From contig JACOZQ010000029.1 in assembly GCA_016181275.1 (NCBI GenBank), forward strand, positions 696 to 43,394: a stretch of 42,699 nucleotides of DNA. The letters are read 5' to 3'. This DNA is from Candidatus Woesearchaeota archaeon (GTDB lineage: Archaea; Nanobdellota; Nanobdellia; SCGC-AAA011-G17; ARS1403). The notes below the pieces were generated by a model. That model had not been told where the DNA came from and did no database searches. It saw only the letters and a program-made list of their open reading frames with translations. A program made the translations under genes and the position numbers. This document shows positions 5,997-30,253 of the stretch, piece by piece (within the stretch, counting starts at the first letter, position 1; each line of letters opens with the position of its first letter).

Positions 5997-6491
5997 ATGA
6001 GACTCGGAAGATTGCTGTATATTGCCTTTATTGGCAACACTTTGTTGGGACCAATAGATTCTAATGCAAAAGAATCTACTAAAAAATATATTGATAGCAT
6101 TGTCGAAGAAACTATTGAAAAATATGATGCTCATAGATATAATATAACTCCGGAATTAGTTTCTTCTATGATATTTCATGAGAGCACTTATGACAGTCTT
6201 GCTGTATCTAAAAAAGGTGCTATGGGATTAATGCAGCTAATGCCGAAAACTGCTGCAGAACTTGGTGTCAAAAATCCGTTTGATCCTAGAGAGAACATTG
6301 ATGGAGGGGTTAGAATGCTGATTGGACTTTCTAAGAGATATGACAATAATAGAACTGCATTAGCAGCTTATAACCGAGGCAAAACCAAAGTCGATACTTT
6401 AATGGCTGAATACGGACATAGGTGGTGGAATGAGCTTCCATCTATAACAAGAAGATATGTAAAAAATGTTTTGGGTTATGCTGAAGAATAA
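5997..6491 (+). CDS. secreted lytic transglycosylase-like (SLT domain) protein
   Basis: A 164-residue protein. Residues 1-24 look like a signal peptide ending near SNA. The rest is one SLT/goose-lysozyme-like domain: the catalytic Glu is E62 in FHESTYDSLAV, followed by KKGAMGLMQLMP, GGVRMLIGL and AAYNRG (usually AAYNAG). In bacteria this fold cleaves peptidoglycan without water. Archaea lack murein, so here it probably acts on a bacterial neighbour or another glycan; that is inference. TATA-like TTAAATA is about 24 nt before the ATG, and a purine-rich GGAG also lies nearby. Confidence 0.85.
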   Translation: MRLGRLLYIAFIGNTLLGPIDSNAKESTKKYIDSIVEETIEKYDAHRYNITPELVSSMIFHESTYDSLAVSKKGAMGLMQLMPKTAAELGVKNPFDPRENIDGGVRMLIGLSKRYDNNRTALAAYNRGKTKVDTLMAEYGHRWWNELPSITRRYVKNVLGYAEE

Positions 6492-6511
6492 TTGTTTTTT
6501 ATTTTTGAAAC

Positions 6512-6583
6512 TGCGCTGACGGAGATTTGAACTCCGGTCGCTGCCTTGGCAAGGCAACATTCTAGCCACTGAACTATCAGCGC
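6512..6583 (-). tRNA. tRNA-Gly(GCC)
   Basis: On the minus strand the 72-nt sequence folds as a cloverleaf: acceptor GCGCTGA pairs with TCAGCGC, the anticodon stem TTGCC/GGCAG (one G-U) closes a seven-base loop TTGCCAA with anticodon GCC, and the T arm has GTTCAAATC. The discriminator base is A and no CCA is encoded. There is no intron. Confidence 0.95.
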
Positions 6584-6773
6584 AATAAAAGACTAATAAA
6601 AAAGGGTTATTTAAATATTATGAAAATTTTCTTTTATATCAATCTGTCTTATCTCTTATAAGATCAGGGGATAATCTTCATTATAGTCTTCTAATATTTA
6701 TGTGCCTATACATCTATATAATATTGACGGAGATTATATTAATTTAATAATTATATTTATTGGTGGTGAGAAA

Positions 6774-6809
6774 ATGAAATATAAAATGAAATATAAAATG
6801 AAATATAAA
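6774..6809 (+). repeat. three exact copies of a 12-bp tandem repeat, each with an ATG
   Basis: ATGAAATATAAA is repeated three times (6774, 6786, 6798) at the start of the PepSY-like gene. Each copy encodes MKYK and supplies an in-frame start codon. Copy-number change would alter the positively charged head of the signal peptide by four residues without frameshift. Confidence 0.95.
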
Positions 6810-7646
6810 TACGTTATTGCGTTAACTTTTGTATTGCTTGTTTTGCCTATTGTATATCCCCAGCAGGCATTAGTTGAGGAGTCATCCAATATTAAAATTG
6901 ATCTTCCAAACCTACAATGGAAAAAGATAAAAGAAAGATTGAACGATGTTTTCTTTGATATAAAAGAAATGATTACAATCAATAAAAAAGAGAAAGTTGA
7001 GCTCATAAAAGAAAGAAATGAAGAGCTTAAATCGAGGCAAAAAGAATGGCTTGAGATAAAAGCACTGGCTTTTGCTAAATTTAATTCTGAAAATTTAACT
7101 TCTGAGGAAAAACAAGAGATTATTGCAGAGATTCAAGCTGAACATGAGGCAATTATAAAGCATCATCTTGAGCTTACAAGAGAAATAAAGATGCTTAAAG
7201 CTGAAGCTGATTTTGAAAACAATACTGAAGTTTCTGGCAATGCTGAAAATGCAGGCAAAGAAATGGATAAATCAAAGCTAAACATGGGCTTGGAAATACC
7301 TGTTATCGGGCAAGCAGCTATTAGATTTAGCAACTATGATTATGGCTATGATGATGAAGATGAAATAATTACTGAAAATCAAGCTGAAATAATCGCTGAA
7401 TCCAAATTCGGCTTTAAATCAACAGGGGTTATAAAAAGCAGTGAAAATGGCAGAGTAGTATTCATAATCAAAGGAAGCAGAGATAAGTTCAAAGGCAATG
7501 TTATGATTAAAGAATTCTATGAAGTATATATTGATAAAGAAACTGGAGAAATAATTTATGCCAATGTTGATTTAGATATGGGAAATAATATTAATGCTGC
7601 TGGATTAAATGTAAAGTCTGATTTAAACGTAGAACTGGGGGTTTGA
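6774..7646 (+). CDS. secreted coiled-coil protein with C-terminal PepSY-like domain
   Basis: From the ATG at 6774 the protein has 290 residues. I prefer this start to an upstream ATG at 6702 because GGTGGTGA lies just before it and the signal-like segment then follows directly (MKYKMKYKMKYK, hydrophobic YVIALTFVLLVLPIVY, then PQQA). Residues about 45-160 are Lys/Glu-rich helix and probably coiled coil. The last 75 residues resemble PepSY: ENQAEIIAESKFG, then FYEVYIDKETGEIIYANVD. PepSY domains are extracytoplasmic and often inhibit peptidases. There is a spacer of about 190 bp upstream, after the tRNA. Confidence 0.6.
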   Translation: MKYKMKYKMKYKYVIALTFVLLVLPIVYPQQALVEESSNIKIDLPNLQWKKIKERLNDVFFDIKEMITINKKEKVELIKERNEELKSRQKEWLEIKALAFAKFNSENLTSEEKQEIIAEIQAEHEAIIKHHLELTREIKMLKAEADFENNTEVSGNAENAGKEMDKSKLNMGLEIPVIGQAAIRFSNYDYGYDDEDEIITENQAEIIAESKFGFKSTGVIKSSENGRVVFIIKGSRDKFKGNVMIKEFYEVYIDKETGEIIYANVDLDMGNNINAAGLNVKSDLNVELGV

Positions 7647-7648
7647 AT

Positions 7649-7757
7649 TTATGTCCACCAATATAGCATGGTTATATAACCTATTATTCCAGCTATAAAA
7701 ATTAATCCAGCTAAAGCTAGTATATATTTGTATAACCAATTTTAAATAAAAATTCAT
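7649..7757 (-). pseudogene. small single-span membrane protein, frameshifted by one base
   Basis: On the minus strand an ATG at 7757 reads MNFYLK and then leaves frame at an A run. If one A is removed from the run, reading continues as NWLYKYILALAGLIFIAG, then IIGYITMLYWWT and stop, a 35-residue one-helix membrane protein. A TATA-like GCTTAAAT lies upstream. It is downstream of the pterin dehydratase gene on the same strand. The hydrophobic pattern ending in a stop is convincing; whether the extra A is real cannot be told here. Confidence 0.4.
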
Positions 7758-7807
7758 AAAAAGATTTAAGCCTGATTATATAGAATTAAAAATTTGTGCC
7801 TGTATAC

Positions 7808-8104
7808 CTATGCAACTATATTGTCTATTTTTTTAACAAAATCAACATCTGCTATCGTTATCGCATTTTTGCTATGGGTTGTTACTGAAATTTTTATTAT
7901 TTTATTTTTGGTATCAAAGAACAAATCTGAATGATGATTTTGTTCGTCCATTGCAGAAATAACTTTTTTTAAGAAATTAACTAAATCCAAAAATTTGAAA
8001 AACTGAAATTCTTTTTCTAGCAAGTTGTTTTTGTAAATCCAATTACTTAAATTTTTTAGCTCTTCAATAATTTCTTCTTTTTTCAGAATTGTTTTATCTT
8101 CCAT
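7808..8104 (-). CDS. pterin-4a-carbinolamine dehydratase family protein
   Basis: A 98-residue protein of the PCD/DCoH family, which dehydrates 4a-hydroxytetrahydrobiopterin. The signature is clear: DEQNHHSDLFFDTKNKI, followed by ISVTTHSKNAITIADVDF. The NHHSD pair of His and the THS His are the active-site residues, so it is probably catalytic. Its length is normal for the family. No aromatic amino acid hydroxylase is found in this window, so its pterin substrate (possibly molybdopterin or folate related) is not indicated by neighbours. It is divergent from the proteasome-like gene. Confidence 0.9.
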   Translation of the reverse strand: MEDKTILKKEEIIEELKNLSNWIYKNNLLEKEFQFFKFLDLVNFLKKVISAMDEQNHHSDLFFDTKNKIIKISVTTHSKNAITIADVDFVKKIDNIVA

Positions 8105-8157
8105 AATATATTTAACAGAAGATAAAGTTTTTAAAAGTTTGGTTAATATAAAGTAAT

Positions 8158-8946
8158 ATGACTACGGTCTTAGGAATAAAGACAAATTCTGGAATTGATT
8201 CTGTGATTTTGGTTTCAGACACACAACACACTATAGATTATGGAGATTTTGAAAGGAAAACTATTGGCGGAAAGATTAGGGTTGGAGAAAACCATGCTAT
8301 TGCTTTTACTGGAAATTCTGAGAAATTTGTAGAAAGATTTTCTAGCTATATCAGCGGACGTACCTCGGCTAAAAATTTTGTTAAGGAAATTTTTAAAGGA
8401 AAGGTTCATCCTCTTTTTTCAGATTTGCCAAAAGATCCAATTAAATTAGCAATAGAAGCAGGATTTTTTCCTGAATTGAGTTTTACTAATAGCGCTTATT
8501 ATAGGAGCCAAGAGAATGAGAGCAATGGAAAGGAAGTTTTTGACTATTTTACAGAACTGATACTGGCAGTGAATAAGCCGGATTTAGGATTATATTATGT
8601 AGATGGATTTGGAAACTTAAGCTCATCATCTTATGGTATAGAATACTTGGTTGCTGGCTCTGGAAGAGAAATTGTTCAAACATATATAGATGAAGAGGAA
8701 TTCAGAAATGATCCTGCAATAAAAGAGGAATTTAGTGAGGATAGAATAACAACGCCTTTAGCAATGAAATTAGCAATCGGTGGTTTAAGAAAAGCAACAA
8801 AGGACGGCAGCACTGGCGGACCAATAGATTTAGTAGTTGTAACCGCAGATTCAATAAATGTACATGGGTCAGAAATAAGAAGATCATTAGACGTTGCGGA
8901 AAGAGAGATCTATCAAAAGATAGTAACTAAATATTTAACTGATTAA
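8158..8946 (+). CDS. divergent proteasome beta-subunit-like Ntn hydrolase without propeptide
   Basis: A 262-residue protein that begins MTTVLGIKT. After Met removal the N-terminal Thr would be the nucleophile, as in proteasome beta subunits (TTTVGIK). Other active-site elements follow in order: VSDTQ (Asp17 equivalent), GGKIRVG (Lys33 equivalent), VAGSGRE (Ser129 region) and KDGSTGGPIDLVVVT (Asp166/Ser169/Gly). About 40-60 extra residues sit between about 80 and 145 (HPLFSDLPKD to ELILAVNKP). TTTTTAAAAG is about 26 nt before the ATG, so the mRNA is probably leaderless, and no propeptide can be encoded. It is not HslV, which lacks the D..S.G motif. Assembly and unfoldase partner are unknown. 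Confidence 0.8.
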   Translation: MTTVLGIKTNSGIDSVILVSDTQHTIDYGDFERKTIGGKIRVGENHAIAFTGNSEKFVERFSSYISGRTSAKNFVKEIFKGKVHPLFSDLPKDPIKLAIEAGFFPELSFTNSAYYRSQENESNGKEVFDYFTELILAVNKPDLGLYYVDGFGNLSSSSYGIEYLVAGSGREIVQTYIDEEEFRNDPAIKEEFSEDRITTPLAMKLAIGGLRKATKDGSTGGPIDLVVVTADSINVHGSEIRRSLDVAEREIYQKIVTKYLTD

Positions 8947-24130: not shown

Positions 24131-24805
24131 CTATTTACTATATGCTTTAACAACTCTTGATAAATCCTTTATAAGATATTTTACTTCCTTAATACCATAT
24201 TCTTTTGCTGTTTCAGCTATAGATTCAAGCCTTGGCACCAAAGATAATAATAGGCCTTCTTCTCCATATACTAATTTACACAATTCCCTATTTTTATTAG
24301 TTTTATTGATTGATACTGCAACAAGCGGCCTGAAAATTGGCCTCATTCCCATAACAAAAATATATGGTGATATTAATTCTTCTGAAGAAGATTTAGCTAT
24401 CTCATCTAAATTTCTTTTTATACCAAACAATTCTGGAATTGGCAAATCTTCTAACTTAAAACTTGATTCTTGTCCATAATCTTTCATATCTGTTGTTTCT
24501 AAATATCCTCCTGCAATGGTTTTTAAATAATAAGACCATGTTAATGCATCAATGCTTTCTCTTAATGAAGGACTATAAATTTTAGATTCACCAGGTGCAA
24601 TATCAATGACAAAAGGTCCTAATGTTTTTAAGATTGAATTAATATTGCTTGATTGTCTCGGGAACAACTTTATAAGAAACGATCCTAAAATTTTTTGAGC
24701 TTCAACGAATAATTCATAACTCCTGTCTTCAGAAGAGATTGTTCTTTTTTCTGCGCTATTTTCTTTTTTGTCTTCTATTTTTCCTAAAGCGTCGTCGATT
24801 GGCAT
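24131..24805 (-). CDS. MPIDDALG-headed protein, paralog of the next upstream gene
   Basis: Starting at the ATG of MPIDDALGKIE (24805) the protein has 224 residues; an upstream in-frame ATG at 24817 lies inside the previous gene and is less likely. A charged linker follows the head, then an alpha-helical globular region including YELFVEAQKILGSFLIK, SPYIFVMGMRPIFRPLVAV and AKEYGIKEVKYLIKDLSRVV. The same blocks appear in the gene at 24808-25512, so the two are tandem duplicates. No catalytic motif seen. Last gene of the MoxR/VWA operon. Confidence 0.65.
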   Translation of the reverse strand: MPIDDALGKIEDKKENSAEKRTISSEDRSYELFVEAQKILGSFLIKLFPRQSSNINSILKTLGPFVIDIAPGESKIYSPSLRESIDALTWSYYLKTIAGGYLETTDMKDYGQESSFKLEDLPIPELFGIKRNLDEIAKSSSEELISPYIFVMGMRPIFRPLVAVSINKTNKNRELCKLVYGEEGLLLSLVPRLESIAETAKEYGIKEVKYLIKDLSRVVKAYSK

Positions 24806-24807
24806 TT

Positions 24808-25512
24808 TTAAACCCACATCTGCTTGTATAAATTAATTGCATGATCAAAACTATCCATTATTGGCATAACTTCTTTTATGCCGTATTTCTCTGCTACCGA
24901 CAGATAATTTTTAGTTAAGGGTCTTTTTAATTGCAGGATCTCTTCGAAATAATCGCTTTTTTGCTCCAGTTGTTTTTGGACAGCCAATACAGATAGAGGC
25001 CTACACTTAAAATCTATACTCATGACCATTATATAAGGATCTAAAATAGCCAGATCTTCTTCTTTATCCGGGTCGCATAGATATTCTGATAATATTTTAA
25101 TTCCAGTAATATATTTGCTTGCTTCTTTAATCCTATCAACCTTAACAAATTGCGCCAGGTCAGTGTTGAAAATATGATCGCCATACATTAATCTGACAAT
25201 GCCTTCTAATACGGAATTTTCAGCTGGAGCAAATTTAATTTCTAGCTTCCTATTATTTGCTGGTCCGGCAGGAAAGATTTTATAAGACATAAATCCAAAT
25301 CTTTTAATTGCTTCTCCTGTTATGGCATGAATTTGATATCCTCCTGATTGATTTCCTAAGATTCCATTGAAGAATCTAAGCAAGATATCTCCAATTACTA
25401 AATTTGCATCCTCGAAAATCTGCCCTGGCTTGGTTTCTTGATTAACCTTGCTTGGTTCTCTGGCTGGCTCTTCTCTAACTTCTATATTCCCCAAAGCGTC
25501 GTCGATTGGCAT
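24808..25512 (-). CDS. MPIDDALG-headed protein, tandem paralog
   Basis: A 234-residue protein starting MPIDDALGNIEVREEP, then a charged linker and a helical domain with FEDANLVIGDILLRFF, DPYIMVMSIDFKCRPLSVL and AEKYGIKEVMPIMDSFDHAI. These align with the downstream paralog block by block. The ATG shares one base with the MoxR stop codon (TAATG), so it is co-translated with the ATPase. Unknown function; by position it is a likely substrate or adaptor of the MoxR/VWA machine. Confidence 0.65.
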   Translation of the reverse strand: MPIDDALGNIEVREEPAREPSKVNQETKPGQIFEDANLVIGDILLRFFNGILGNQSGGYQIHAITGEAIKRFGFMSYKIFPAGPANNRKLEIKFAPAENSVLEGIVRLMYGDHIFNTDLAQFVKVDRIKEASKYITGIKILSEYLCDPDKEEDLAILDPYIMVMSIDFKCRPLSVLAVQKQLEQKSDYFEEILQLKRPLTKNYLSVAEKYGIKEVMPIMDSFDHAINLYKQMWV

Positions 25513-27029
25513 TATATACTCTCTACTCCTCTTGCTTTTTCCATTGCTTTTGACAGAAGATATTTCTGAGCATGCGGCTTTAACTCAGTCGATAATGCTA
25601 ATCTTCCTTGAATGTCTTCAAGCTTTTTTCCCTTCATTTCTTCAGATTCAATCTCACTATATAAATCCCTGAATTCCTGCCTGTCAGCTTCTTCAACCAA
25701 AGGCTTGAAGTGATATTGCACTACCAAATCCTTGTCAATGTCATTAATCTTCGAATCTCCAGGGGCTATTTCTCCACGCAATACCATCGGCACTTCTTTC
25801 AAAGCATCTTTAACAGTGCTGTAATCTCCTGTTGCTTTAGCTACAACTGCTTCCAGAAATTTCATCTTCTGACCACTATAAGGATCTTTTGATATAACTG
25901 TTTCGCTTGGCTGGATTCTATGATACATAAGATAAGGCGCGATTGTCTGTAGTGTTTCTAATTGCACTTCTGGCTTTGCGACATCGACTTCTACTTTATT
26001 TCCTTTTTTATCTTCAACAACAGCTTTATATGAAAATGCATTTAAGAACCATGCATAAGCCTTTCCCCATCTTTGGAAATCCAAAAATGCCCTGCCGCTC
26101 AATCCATCCTGAGTCATCTTGCAAATGCTAACTGGTGTATCAAACCCGCAGCCCTTGCATCTTTCTCCTACAGGTATTTCATTATGCGACTTGTCAAAAT
26201 CATCTCCTCTTGCACAAGTTGAAACTGCTTGAGTGAGATAAATTGCATATATTAGAGCATCTGAGCTCATCTTAACATCTTCAGAAATTAATTTTCTTGC
26301 TTCAAGCAGCTCCTCCAGTGTCATCACCGGCTTTACAACTAATTCTTTTAATTTATCATCAGGCCTTTCTGCAAGCAGATATTGATCTGAAGCAGATGGC
26401 TGCTGCGGAGCTGGAACACAAAAGCTAAACCTGTCAACAAACGGCCTGCTCAATGGATATGTTCCTGAATCATTTGGATTCTCTGTTGCAAATGCCATGA
26501 AATCCGATATTTGATAAACCTGATCAATAAATTCAACCCTTCCTCTGTTTAAAATTTCAAACAAAGCATTCTGAGCTGGAGGCGGAAATCTATTTACTTC
26601 ATCCATGATCTTAACATAAGATGTCACAAAATTTCTCCATTTAACTTCTTCCTCTCCATGAACTATTAATTTTCCCAGTTTCAATGTTGCCAGTAATGTA
26701 TTAACATTCTGATCATCATTGCCACGAATCATTGCACTAGTTATTTCTTTTTCAGGAATTCCAGTGAGCATGTGAGCTACTTTTTCCACCATCGTGGTTT
26801 TACTTCCACCATGCCCTCCTCTATATATCACTCCGCTTTTTGGAACTAGTCCATTAACAACAGCCGAGCTCGTCATTGGATCAAGATATGTCTTCCTGAC
26901 TTTTCCATCAGGTCCTTTATAAGTAAATTCCATCCTGCCTCTGCTATTATAATAAACTCCTTGCACCGGGATTTGGGTATAAACTGTTCTTACCTTTTCC
27001 CTTAAAGTATTATGTTTTTGCTTGTTCAT
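25512..27029 (-). CDS. MoxR-type AAA+ ATPase with a four-cysteine insertion
   Basis: A 505-residue AAA+ protein. Walker A is GGHGGSKTTM (71-80), Walker B IMDEVNR (141-147), sensor 1 FATENPND (N184), and the Arg-finger region PLSRPFVDRF (R195/R200). Together these match the MoxR branch. C272, C291, C294 and C303 (STCARG, ERCKGCGF, VSIC) form a probable zinc site in an insertion not typical of MoxR. The C-terminal part is helical. GGAGG precedes the ATG. MoxR ATPases act with VWA partners as chaperone-like machines; the VWA protein is upstream in the same operon. Confidence 0.88.
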   Translation of the reverse strand: MNKQKHNTLREKVRTVYTQIPVQGVYYNSRGRMEFTYKGPDGKVRKTYLDPMTSSAVVNGLVPKSGVIYRGGHGGSKTTMVEKVAHMLTGIPEKEITSAMIRGNDDQNVNTLLATLKLGKLIVHGEEEVKWRNFVTSYVKIMDEVNRFPPPAQNALFEILNRGRVEFIDQVYQISDFMAFATENPNDSGTYPLSRPFVDRFSFCVPAPQQPSASDQYLLAERPDDKLKELVVKPVMTLEELLEARKLISEDVKMSSDALIYAIYLTQAVSTCARGDDFDKSHNEIPVGERCKGCGFDTPVSICKMTQDGLSGRAFLDFQRWGKAYAWFLNAFSYKAVVEDKKGNKVEVDVAKPEVQLETLQTIAPYLMYHRIQPSETVISKDPYSGQKMKFLEAVVAKATGDYSTVKDALKEVPMVLRGEIAPGDSKINDIDKDLVVQYHFKPLVEEADRQEFRDLYSEIESEEMKGKKLEDIQGRLALSTELKPHAQKYLLSKAMEKARGVESI

Positions 27030-27030
27030 T

Positions 27031-27304
27031 TTAATAATCCTCCAATTTCATTCTTTCATAAAATATTACCCACCTTTCTTTTTTCAATGATGCTATTTCC
27101 TGCCTGTTTTGATTGAGCTCTTTTTCATACTCTCTTCTTTCTTCACAGACATTTTTCCTATTCTTTCCATTGCAGAAATTGTGAAATCTGTTAGAGCATC
27201 AAGCCTTTGATTAATTTCTTCAGTTCTCATTTCTATTTTCCTTATTTCTTCTGAACCAGATTTTCTCCTGAATTAAAATTTCCTAAAGCATTATCTATTA
27301 TCAT
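27031..27304 (-). pseudogene. MPIDDALG-type coiled-coil gene with two frameshifts
   Basis: From the ATG at 27304 the frame starts MIIDNALGNFNSGE, matching the head of the neighbouring proteins, then ends early. Adding one A gives SGSEEIRKIEMRTEEINQRL, then DALTDFTISAMERIGK; adding a second A later gives NVCEERREYEKELNQNRQ and EIASLKKERWVIFYERM to a stop at 27031, exactly before the MoxR RBS. Restored, it is about 91 residues, mostly coiled coil. Both lost bases are in A runs. Could be real decay or basecalling error. Confidence 0.6.
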
Positions 27305-27306
27305 TT

Positions 27307-28071
27307 TTATTCCCGAAAAAACTTAAATAATTTATTTCTAAATCTTCCTGGAGAGATATCCTTAAGACCCTTTGGACCATGATAATATATATGATACTTT
27401 ATTCTTGTTTTGCCTATAGCATATCTTTCTAATTGATACAATCTCTGTATAACTTGCTTAGCTACAAATGAACCAGCACCTAAATTCTTATTTATTAATT
27501 CAAAATTTGAAACTAAAGCTCTTTCTAAAAGGATAACGCCCAATAAATCTGTTGTGTTATATAATTCAACTAATGTCTCATTTGCAATTTTTACTCTTGT
27601 TAGCAATTGCTGATTACTTGGAGCATTACTTGGCAGTGTCTTGGCTTCTTCATTTATCTTGGCTAATGGATCCTCAATTATTCCTAACAGTTCTTTAGAT
27701 AGTGCATCTGGAATCTTAACACCAGCAGCAGACCTATCACCTGTTAATTCTGGTGTTAAAACTCCTTCAAAATATTTATTCCATCTATCCAATTCAGAAT
27801 TTATACTATCAAGACCACCTCTTAATCTTAAATAAAAAGTTGCATATGGCCAAAAACTATCTAATACAACCTTGAGATCTGAAGTATCTATCTTATATCT
27901 TCGATCATCTTCCAAAAATGCTCTTGCTTTTAAAAACCTGTCATGCAAGTCTCCAATTTTTTCAGCTGGAAGTAAATTAGGAGGTTCTATAATCCTTGTT
28001 CTTTCTGCTTGTTTCTCTTCTTTCATTTCTTTTGAAAATTCTATATTCCCTAAAGCGTCATCAATCGGCAT
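27307..28071 (-). CDS. MPIDDALG-headed helical protein
   Basis: Starting from the ATG at 28071 (GGAGG seven bases before it) the protein has 254 residues; an in-frame ATG at 28095 would place eight extra residues inside the VWA gene and is less likely. After MPIDDALGNIEF comes a charged linker (SKEMKEEKQAERTR) and an all-helical region such as DLHDRFLKARAFLEDD, KIANETLVELYNTTDLLGV, ending basic (GRFRNKLFKFFRE). It overlaps the end of the VWA gene by 11 bp, so the two are coupled. Not recognised. Confidence 0.65.
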   Translation of the reverse strand: MPIDDALGNIEFSKEMKEEKQAERTRIIEPPNLLPAEKIGDLHDRFLKARAFLEDDRRYKIDTSDLKVVLDSFWPYATFYLRLRGGLDSINSELDRWNKYFEGVLTPELTGDRSAAGVKIPDALSKELLGIIEDPLAKINEEAKTLPSNAPSNQQLLTRVKIANETLVELYNTTDLLGVILLERALVSNFELINKNLGAGSFVAKQVIQRLYQLERYAIGKTRIKYHIYYHGPKGLKDISPGRFRNKLFKFFRE

Positions 28072-30121
28072 CTTCTTCCTCCTGAGCTGAGTCATATCTT
28101 CTTTTTACCTGGCCGATAACAATCCCTACTAAGTCTTCTATCTTTTTGGCTTTATGAACAACTGCTCCTCTTTCTTCAATACATTCTGCAAATTTCCTGC
28201 CTGTTGATGGATTTAATTTTACAACAAAAACATCATCATATTCTGAGATGCCTTTTGCAAATGCATCACATGCTTCTTGCCAATTACTAATATCACAGTC
28301 AGACATAAGGCATGTTTGCAGAGGGTTGGTTGTTTTCTTGATTATTTCTTCTACTTCTTTAACAGGAACTACTGTTCCTCCGCTGTAATTTGTCATAACT
28401 GCCATTTCAACTTTGTTTATATCATCTGTATAATCCTGCACAGTTATATTATCTTCGCCTGAAAAATTTATTGCTGCAACTTTCCCGCCATTTTCAATTG
28501 CATACAAGGCAGCTCCCTCAGCAGCCAATATTGCCTTATCAAAATCTCCTCTTGCTTCTGGATTATCTGCCCATTTATCCCAGCCCATACTTCCAGATGA
28601 GTCTATGGAAATAAATAAGTCAGGAATTCTTTTTAATCTTCCAACGCCTTCAGATACTTCTGCTTTTCTTTTATAAGTAGTCAGCCCAGGAATTGGTTTT
28701 CCTGAAGCCATTATTGAAGGGATTATTTCCAATCCTCCTTTTCCTATTATTGGATCTCCAACATTCCATGCTGTCTGATATGAGGGTGCTTTCTCTGCTC
28801 TTTGATTATCAGCTTCTTTCATAGATATCAAAAGCTCTTTTGCCCTTGCCCTGTACATTAATCTCAATGCATCATCTGGCTCTAATTTATGCAATACTCC
28901 CATTGTGCCTGCAAATTTTCCAGGTGATCTCTCATTTCTATGATAAACCTCATCTAATGCGTTTTCATCTATATTCGCAGCTTCATCATCATCGCTGTTT
29001 TCATGATTATCATTTTTATTATTCTTGCCACTTTTTCCTTTTCCATCTTTTCCTTTATCCCTGGAAACTTTTTCTCCGCCTTCTTGCTCTCCTAGCGGGC
29101 TTTTTGTAGGCTCACCCATTTGTGATTTGACGTCATCAGGAATTGGCATTCCATCATTCTGCTCGCCGCCTTGCTGTTGATTTTTTCCCTGTCCGCTTTT
29201 TCCCTGTCCGTTCCTGCCATATCTGCTATTACCTCTTTGGTTTTTTGTATCTTGAGCAGTTTGCTTTATTATTGGTTCAAGGATTGTGGCGAATTTTCTT
29301 ATTTTAGCTTCCCATGTAGTTCTGTCTTTCCAATCACTTCCTAATATATCAACTAATCCTTGAGCTACTTTTTCAGCATTATTGTCTTTTTTCTGGACAT
29401 GGTCTTTTAACCCTAAATCTTCATTCCATAATTTTTCATAAGCAGATACTAATGTCCGCCATAATAATGACGGCGCTTGCTGAGTTTTTCTTGCGTCTTT
29501 AACTGTTTCTTTCTGTCTCCATAAAGTTAAATCTCCGAAATCATCTCTTCCGTATTTTTCTTTAGCTAGGAAAGTATCTCCAATTAAATCACCCATGATG
29601 TTCAAAACTAAATATGCATAATCTGAAGCAAGTTTTTTATTCTGCACAATATTTTGATCTTTAAATCCTTTTAATGCTGAATCTACTAAAATTGCTTCTG
29701 TTACTCTATCCCCAGGAACCTTTGTAAAATGAGTTGTTTCATGCTGGAATATACTCCTAGAATATTGCCTATTTTCTACTCCTGGAGATGCTCTTTCTGC
29801 TGCTGCAACATACTTATCCAATGAAGCTGTGTACTCTAGATTATTTGGAACATCATCGCTGTTGAAATACGTTGTCCATGTCTTAGGCACTATATAAAAT
29901 CCTCTTGGAACAGCTACTCTAACATTTTTAGGCAGCTTATTTTTCTCCCTCGCTGTTTCAGCATTTACTATTTTAGGATCCGGCAAGTTAGAAACAAACA
30001 AGTCCCAGCATGACTGCCTGAATGACTGCAAGATTTCTTTTTCTGTCAAACCTGGCTGCGGGGTTACTTTTGATTGATTTCCTAAATCTTTGTTTCCTGT
30101 TAATTTATCTAAAAGACCCAT
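28061..30121 (-). CDS. HExxH-motif plus von Willebrand A domain protein
   Basis: A 686-residue protein. Residues 127-131 are HETTH in SIFQHETTHFT, a HExxH zinc-peptidase-like motif, as in DUF2201-type MoxR partners. Residues about 295-400 are a low-complexity Gly/Asn/Lys/Asp linker. The VWA domain begins near 500: DSSGSMG gives MIDAS residues D507, S509 and S511; the Thr of YSGGTVV is near T583 and MSDCD near D608, so a metal-binding MIDAS looks complete. C-terminus acidic (EEEDAD). VWA proteins beside MoxR bind and deliver substrates. Its head start directly follows the RHH gene stop. Confidence 0.85.
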   Translation of the reverse strand: MGLLDKLTGNKDLGNQSKVTPQPGLTEKEILQSFRQSCWDLFVSNLPDPKIVNAETAREKNKLPKNVRVAVPRGFYIVPKTWTTYFNSDDVPNNLEYTASLDKYVAAAERASPGVENRQYSRSIFQHETTHFTKVPGDRVTEAILVDSALKGFKDQNIVQNKKLASDYAYLVLNIMGDLIGDTFLAKEKYGRDDFGDLTLWRQKETVKDARKTQQAPSLLWRTLVSAYEKLWNEDLGLKDHVQKKDNNAEKVAQGLVDILGSDWKDRTTWEAKIRKFATILEPIIKQTAQDTKNQRGNSRYGRNGQGKSGQGKNQQQGGEQNDGMPIPDDVKSQMGEPTKSPLGEQEGGEKVSRDKGKDGKGKSGKNNKNDNHENSDDDEAANIDENALDEVYHRNERSPGKFAGTMGVLHKLEPDDALRLMYRARAKELLISMKEADNQRAEKAPSYQTAWNVGDPIIGKGGLEIIPSIMASGKPIPGLTTYKRKAEVSEGVGRLKRIPDLFISIDSSGSMGWDKWADNPEARGDFDKAILAAEGAALYAIENGGKVAAINFSGEDNITVQDYTDDINKVEMAVMTNYSGGTVVPVKEVEEIIKKTTNPLQTCLMSDCDISNWQEACDAFAKGISEYDDVFVVKLNPSTGRKFAECIEERGAVVHKAKKIEDLVGIVIGQVKRRYDSAQEEEDAD

Positions 30122-30253
30122 TTATTTCTCCAAAAATTTTGATATAGCATATTCCACAATATGGCTTCTATTACGAAACATTCCTTTCTTTAATTCTCTC
30201 TCTATTTTCTCTACAATATTTCTCTCTACGCTTACGCTGATTTTATCTTTCAT
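30122..30253 (-). CDS. ribbon-helix-helix (CopG/Arc-like) transcriptional regulator
   Basis: A 43-residue protein: KDKISVSVERNIVEKIEREL is a ribbon strand plus helix, then MFRNRSHIVEYAISKFLEK is the second helix, the classical RHH fold that dimerises on palindromic DNA. The stop TAA touches the ATG of the VWA gene, so it heads this operon. RHH proteins usually bind their own promoter; candidate sites lie just upstream at 30254-30373, shared with the divergent operon. Confidence 0.85.
   Translation of the reverse strand: MKDKISVSVERNIVEKIERELKKGMFRNRSHIVEYAISKFLEK

Follow-up and report, generated by a model that had tools for sequence, protein, structure and literature searches.

Dissimilar proteins encoded beside a MoxR ATPase and a VWA protein in Woesearchaeota share a short N-terminal peptide, a candidate locus-specific docking tag

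MoxR-type AAA+ ATPases that are paired with a von Willebrand factor A (VWA) protein are best known for serving one or a few fixed enzymes, namely LdcI/fumarate reductase for RavA-ViaA, Rubisco for CbbQ-CbbO and NO reductase for NorQ-NorD. For the last of these, the metal ion-dependent adhesion site (MIDAS) of NorD recruits an acidic patch of the NorQD client (PMC9976466). The MoxR-vWA ternary conflict systems comprise a MoxR-vWA core, interchangeable partners and N-terminal adaptors, and are frequently linked to diversity-generating retroelements (DGRs); their effector-associated domains (EADs) are folded domains, with one copy joined to a core component, and it is the vWA protein that bears the diversified domain (Kaur et al., 2020, PMC7159879). 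Putative antigen sensors diversified by DGRs, with C-type-lectin targets encoded next to MoxR and vWA genes, have also been described, in a study that judged a clade of DPANN DGR targets to be unconnected to conflict-system domains (Dore et al., 2024, PMC10907252). Such DPANN targets adopt the C-type-lectin fold and lack transmembrane and known domains (AvpA, Handa et al., 2016, PMC5006420; Paul et al., 2015, PMC4372165; Roux et al., 2021, PMC8144416). The present analysis concerns a 42,699-nt stretch of DNA, hereafter the window, from a Candidatus Woesearchaeota archaeon (GCA_016181275.1, contig JACOZQ010000029.1, positions 696-43,394 of the forward strand), in which a minus-strand operon at 24131-30253 encodes a MoxR ATPase, a VWA protein and several proteins, here called clients, that begin with much the same short peptide, here called the head. 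We consider it probable, at roughly 0.6, that the head is a locus-specific docking tag, by which the adjoining MoxR/VWA machine would know its clients, cytosolic proteins that differ in other respects.

As in NorQ-NorD, CbbQ-CbbO and RavA-ViaA, the MoxR ATPase of this locus adjoins a VWA protein with an intact MIDAS (DSSGS at 507, T583 and D608 in the window protein). Unlike those machines, each locus of the kind described here holds a set of different proteins under one short common tag, its VWA protein has HExxH as an additional motif, and its clients could be assigned to no known family. None had a fitting family in Pfam, NCBIfam or PADLOC, weak matches to PADLOC PtuA and other sub-threshold hits being discarded as chance, and the cognate enzymes named above are not in the locus, where the operon clients gave no meaningful Pfam or NCBIfam score. 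With the systems of Kaur et al. the locus shares the MoxR-vWA core, the interchangeable partners, the N-terminal adaptors and the DGR linkage, but the tag is a peptide of 11-35 residues and the diversified domain lies on the tagged clients. Nor can the head be counted as an EAD, because no core component holds a copy of it: a homotypic, EAD-like pairing was looked for in the MoxR and VWA proteins, and segments from a locus's own core scored no better than those from other loci. Neither Pfam nor PADLOC gave a convincing match among the operon proteins to a third core component (VMAP, iSTAND or FtsH), the VMAP-C profile lying outside the search.

The MPIDDALG starts at 24805, 25512 and 28071 and the MIIDNALG start at 27304, all on the minus strand, are as the first-pass annotation of the window had described them. 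Its statement that MPIDDALGNIE heads four proteins needs trimming: three intact genes carry MPIDDALG(N/K)IE, but the exact peptide occurs only twice, lysine replaces asparagine in the third, and the fourth gene is broken. Past the head the proteins do diverge, apart from the diverged tandem paralogs at 24131 and 24808, and the match of the client at 27307 to these two is confined to its first 47 residues (E 0.12). Over all pairs of the three intact copies, codons 2-11 are identical in 18 comparisons, differ synonymously in 10 and nonsynonymously in 2, whereas at codons 21-30 nonsynonymous comparisons make up 29 of 30; since the changes in the head are mostly synonymous, it is the peptide rather than the DNA that is conserved and under selection, just as had been argued. 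A degenerate DNA pattern for I(D/N)(D/N)ALG has four sites in the 942-kb genome, all of them in this operon, and none when reversed as a control, which is more than chance.

The head is likewise kept in a relative, Woesearchaeota RIFCSPLOWO2_02_FULL_30_14 (G017), whose MoxR and VWA proteins are 72% and 56% identical to those of the window (the MoxR of another genome, G024, is 45% identical). The G017 operon contains about 14 client open reading frames (ORFs) of several body types, every one starting MPID, and about 17 further MPID-headed proteins lie mostly on other contigs, which makes about 31 in total, the invariance of MPID in the genome-wide search being by construction since the pattern included it. 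Homologs of both window client families bear MPIDxxL there, those of family A (24131 and 24808) at L018:920-1660 and L158:5999-6727 and those of family B (27307) at L018:8722-9507, 7928-8719, 7194-7925 and 6451-7191. Elsewhere in G017 the head stands almost only on the same kind of tagged protein and is not scattered over unrelated loci, so that on both counts, presence in relatives and confinement to such proteins, the expectation of the first-pass annotation was borne out. Most G017 head copies are just 67-76% alike in DNA and nevertheless keep MPID..L, while the second aspartate is variable. The MPIDD head is also found on small or membrane-type proteins (L149:4993-5667 and L154:4787-5242), and the tagged set therefore extends past lectin-like bodies.

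Beyond what had been noticed in the window, each locus has a head of its own, the VWA protein contains the HExxH motif, and clients are DGR targets in many relatives. The pairing of MoxR and VWA genes with neighbours that have a common head recurs in other genomes of the same archaeal class. Neighbouring genes share KINPNLLKLAEQTYDPDLK at G039 and ALHRNVEDIVGQYEGL at G040, and the heads read MK(L/V/I)P..F.P...L at G035, IIGDKTESKYDPNLAERLNKE at L070 and LGQRTRKTNID..LA.RLN at L121; two loci in a single genome, G026, have MKIPDNIFGKDREAELKKYLEES and MTKPKRFFGRDPKENLKKVLASL. These G026 loci, L074 and L076, are both MoxR-VWA-DGR loci with VWA proteins 82% identical, different client heads and separate template repeats, and they are a natural test of tag orthogonality. 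In the discovery set of 51 loci, ORF pairs without body similarity had a common head in 57 of 564 cases within operons but in only 2 of 3209 cases in flanking DNA of the same contigs (Fisher p 9e-46), and the sharing comes from six loci, namely the window, G017, G035, L070, L121 and L097. Pairs with homologous bodies shared a head in 170 of 190 cases within an operon and in 4 of 44 between loci. These two tests, like the strict held-out test given below, were made without head patterns. With client lists chosen by head patterns, cross-locus pairs with body E <= 1e-8 had unrelated heads in 201/291 cases, and head identity exceeded body identity within 24/25 loci, the reverse being true of 48/62 locus pairs. 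Twenty previously unused VWA loci were held out and processed identically: 11 of the 20 had a common head, new in sequence (e.g., MKKGTGIDDLVRDYVPERVEE and IQIPDNFMGKPIKGSIEKVL), and in all 11, the comparison covering just the loci with such a head, it was better conserved than the body (e.g., 89% vs 31% and 100% vs 27%). On this sequence evidence we take locus-specific, specially conserved heads to be general, and the shuffling of heads over unrelated bodies to be established for the smaller part of the loci, which includes the window and G017.

What the heads are attached to is best seen in the DGR loci. Template/variable pairs were detected in 11 discovery loci, where the targets are head-bearing ORFs (one truncated by a contig end), each locus has a reverse transcriptase (RT) ORF, and 279/290 mismatches fall at template adenine, a bias that is partly by construction because the scan required at least 80%. 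Pairs in five held-out loci bring the number to 16 loci in all. At G039 a single DGR has three targets, and these are the three tagged clients (the automatic scan placed 36 of 38 mismatches at template adenine), and in G006, from the same family as the window genome, MoxR, VWA, three clients headed MKFNTYFGK, an RT and template/variable repeats occur together. At G035 the DGR and its target lie on a different contig from the MoxR-VWA operon, yet the target bears the operon's head. An AlphaFold2 model of one G017 client (29 homologs, pLDDT 89) has a helix at residues 3-11, a disordered segment at 12-30 and a well-folded body, for which the best PDB matches are to C-type-lectin domains (E about 0.01-0.1, with a probability as high as 0.97), a Thermus DGR variable protein being also among the top ones. 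The same G017 head stands on lectin-fold and on other bodies, and the head looks like a detachable module in this model, made of a helix and a disordered linker before a folded body. The window genome has two RT genes on other contigs (L035 and an interrupted L036), a template/variable pair was not found in it, and a repeat match at 24762/25469 that had been considered as a DGR is simply two heads. Its clients lack the LGVR end of a variable region, and its DGR-type lectin ORFs (L162:1790-2557, L163:3299-3691 and L164:4309-4542, on contigs C20, C33 and C50) lack the MPIDD head. The DGR of this genome is probably decaying, and with only RT genes and headless lectin ORFs in it, the window's tagged set is of a non-DGR kind.

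The VWA protein consists of an alpha-helical N-terminal domain with HETTH at 127-131, a low-complexity middle and a C-terminal VWA domain, the model of which matches VWA folds in the PDB (best E 2.4e-5) and which Pfam recognises in part of a set of 51 members. In the alignment of these members H127, H131, D507, S509 and T583 are invariant, and E128, D178, S511 and D608 nearly so. HExxH is present in the N-terminal helical region of 47 of the 51, and no peptidase family was matched by Pfam over the set; peptidase activity is therefore read from the motif, which would make the protein the bearer of a putative gluzincin-like metallopeptidase domain. Together with the near-invariant D178 some 50 residues on, and with a head and disordered linker that lie at the very start of the client, the motif lends some appeal to the idea that the head is a leader peptide, which the HExxH domain would recognise and cleave off so as to mature or export the clients. 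We regard this as unlikely. The head consensus gives no evident conserved cleavage site after the heads, none of 117 clients has a hydrophobic N-terminus that could act as an export signal, Pfam assigns the domain to no known peptidase family, and the motif is altered to HExxxH in G017 (L018) and to HGxGH in L021, L022 and L072, although the heads of L018 and L021 are well conserved.

Somewhat less likely again is a role in co-assembly, in which the heads would bind each other or a common scaffold to form one mixed complex, MoxR-VWA being merely an assembly factor. The short helix with hydrophobic residues at 3, 7 and 10 and the many tagged proteins per genome would suit such an arrangement, but a coiled coil of the usual kind would need longer heads, some loci have just two or three tagged proteins, and the tags are conserved on clients encoded in trans too. 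Plain paralogy, with one ancestor whose N-terminus happens to be the best-kept part, would account for clients 2 and 3 of the window and for most loci, including nearly all of the held-out ones, where the ORFs that share a head also have homologous bodies. As a full account it is improbable, because bodies without detectable similarity share a head in six loci, of which the window and G017 are two, one G017 head is carried by lectin-fold and other bodies alike, and homologous bodies elsewhere bear unrelated heads, which is the opposite of what common descent of the N-terminus predicts. That the heads, which do lie exactly at gene starts, are a nucleic-acid element, acting as a recombination site or in the control of translation or of the mRNA, and code for a peptide only incidentally is scarcely credible, since copies differ mostly at synonymous positions and those of G017 keep MPID..L on divergent DNA.

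Several observations weigh against the docking reading itself. The strict test, a common head on dissimilar bodies, was not reproduced in the held-out loci (1/215 operon pairs vs 13/1143 flanking pairs), so that in most loci the heads sit on paralogs, and strict modularity rests on the six discovery loci. About half of the loci of the VWA family have no tagged set, several of these being short contigs or a different subtype. The correlation of head distance with the distances of VWA and MoxR is weak (Mantel r of 0.17 and 0.21, respectively; p < 0.01) and no better than that of body distance, and coevolution of head and core is therefore compatible with the data rather than demonstrated. The headless lectin ORFs of the window genome, and the selection that is built into the adenine bias, the head-pattern client lists and the held-out comparison of head and body, count in the same direction.

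For a short helix on a linker that is constant within a locus, different between loci, precedes variable bodies and is encoded beside a remodelling ATPase with known relatives that take up their clients by way of a VWA adaptor, a docking tag nevertheless is the simplest reading. We infer a mechanism in which the N-terminal helix, on its flexible linker, would dock in a pocket that belongs either to the VWA protein, in its MIDAS or its HExxH domain, or to the MoxR-VWA complex, whereupon the hexameric MoxR ATPase would remodel, activate or present the client body. The tag would stay constant and so allow new bodies to be fitted to the machine. That an aspartate of the head pair might act as a MIDAS ligand is a reasonable idea by analogy, because NorD binds its client through its MIDAS and acidic residues of the client. 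An acidic residue lies within the first 12 residues at 33/33 loci, compared with 428/605 control N-termini, which lends weak support to such a contact; the HExxH domain is an equally good candidate for the tag reader. A tag-reading region was sought by comparing L074/L076, with close cores and different heads, with L105/L110, which have the same head, and the comparison was not discriminating. A universal head motif, [LIFMVY]{2}G[KNDRQE], was also tried and is present in 12/33 locus heads vs 19/605 controls, which is suggestive and not universal. In many relatives some of the bodies are C-type-lectin ligand binders hypermutated by DGRs, and the machine therefore most likely acts on a set of recognition proteins whose make-up can change.

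The features of the window operon are collected in Table 1. Transcribed from the minus strand, it begins with a ribbon-helix-helix gene, whose stop overlaps the start of the VWA gene and whose product is a probable autoregulator of the operon, and continues with VWA, client 1, a broken tagged gene, MoxR and clients 2 and 3, the start of client 2 overlapping the MoxR stop (TAATG). In-frame starts exist upstream of the genes at 24805 (GTG 24817) and 28071 (ATG 28095), and the head codon is the natural start of both. The translation at 27304 reads MIIDNALGNFNSGENLVQKK and then a stop, the other frames being coiled-coil-like without a clean ORF, which suggests a remnant or a frameshifted small client. 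Scans for promoters and terminators gave matches no more numerous than in shuffled sequence. Assignment of the ATPase to MoxR follows from its AAA_3 and AAA_5 scores; at about residues 291-303 it has a possible metal-binding cluster of cysteines (CKGCGFD...C), which is also conserved in the G017 and G024 proteins. Elsewhere in the window genome, an 880-aa ORF (L163:73-2715, C33) resembles HerA/FtsK-type ATPases and is interrupted by an intein with a homing-endonuclease-like region.

Table 1. Genes and head peptide copies of the operon, in window positions.
Feature	Position	Strand	Basis
Ribbon-helix-helix (CopG-type) protein, 43 aa, first gene of the operon	30122..30253	-	Translation; Pfam RHH_1 PF01402, E 1e-4, 22.6 bits (cut-off 20.5)
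VWA protein, 686 aa	28061..30121	-	51-member alignment; HExxH/DxSxS scan; C-terminal model vs PDB
Client 1, body family B, 254 aa, head MPIDDALGNIE	27307..28071	-	ORF; MPID-headed homologs in G017
Head peptide copy 1, MPIDDALGNIE	28039..28071	-	Pattern match, codon comparison
Broken tagged gene, head MIIDNALGNF, stop after 20 codons	27242..27304	-	Three-frame translation; pattern match
MoxR-type AAA+ ATPase, 505 aa	25512..27029	-	Pfam AAA_3 E 1.5e-9, AAA_5 E 1e-7, both above cut-off
Client 2, body family A, 234 aa, head MPIDDALGNIE	24808..25512	-	ORF; MPID-headed homologs
Head peptide copy 2, MPIDDALGNIE	25480..25512	-	Pattern match, codon comparison
Client 3, 224 aa, head MPIDDALGKIE, paralog of client 2	24131..24805	-	ORF; 26% identity, E 1e-9
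Head peptide copy 3, MPIDDALGKIE	24773..24805	-	Pattern match, codon comparison

The VWA protein is patchily distributed, being found in 17/103 genomes of the order, in 36/378 of a class sample and in 49/371 of a phylum sample searched with a wider profile; the named relatives that possess it are Woesearchaeota, and the host lineages are tiny archaea of a symbiotic type. With few exceptions, the loci read have a MoxR gene near the VWA gene. One subtype (L024, L064, L099 and L122) has a gene for 264-298 aa between MoxR and VWA and no tagged clients, and at L024 and L099 there are large downstream genes resembling Hsp90/GHKL-type ATPases. A viral origin was considered and set aside, IMG/VR containing no relative of the MoxR protein.

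Like AvpA and other archaeal DGR targets, the clients diversified here have a C-type-lectin fold and neither a transmembrane nor a known domain, though the one tested gave no significant match to AvpA or to any chain in a PDB sequence search. They also resemble the sensors of Dore et al. in combining a DGR, C-type-lectin targets and adjoining MoxR and vWA genes. Against the judgement of that study on the DPANN clade, the DGR targets of 16 DPANN loci are tied here to MoxR-VWA by position or by a common head, and the loci are an exception in substance because the MoxR and VWA genes are immediate neighbours. Neither an N-terminal tag nor a link to MoxR-VWA was found in the searched text of the literature on AvpA and archaeal DGR targets (PMC5006420, PMC4372165 and PMC8144416), and shared N-terminal heads are not described in the literature searched, which lacked Paul et al. 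2017, so that an earlier notice is possible.

The head gives the DGR targets of DPANN archaea, hitherto without a recognisable partner or pathway, a candidate partner in the MoxR ATPase and the putative metallopeptidase-VWA protein, and it provides a simple rule for finding more clients anywhere in a genome. More tentatively, and with somewhat less than even confidence, we suggest that these archaea may possess an adaptable recognition system, in which a peptide private to each locus would plug any body, hypermutated lectins in trans included, into a dedicated MoxR/metallopeptidase-VWA machine, tag and machine would diverge together, and orthogonal systems could coexist in one genome, as G026 suggests. 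If the head is a docking code, what archaeal DGRs diversify, and which machine reads the result, would become directly testable, and small orthogonal tag/receptor pairs would be on offer.

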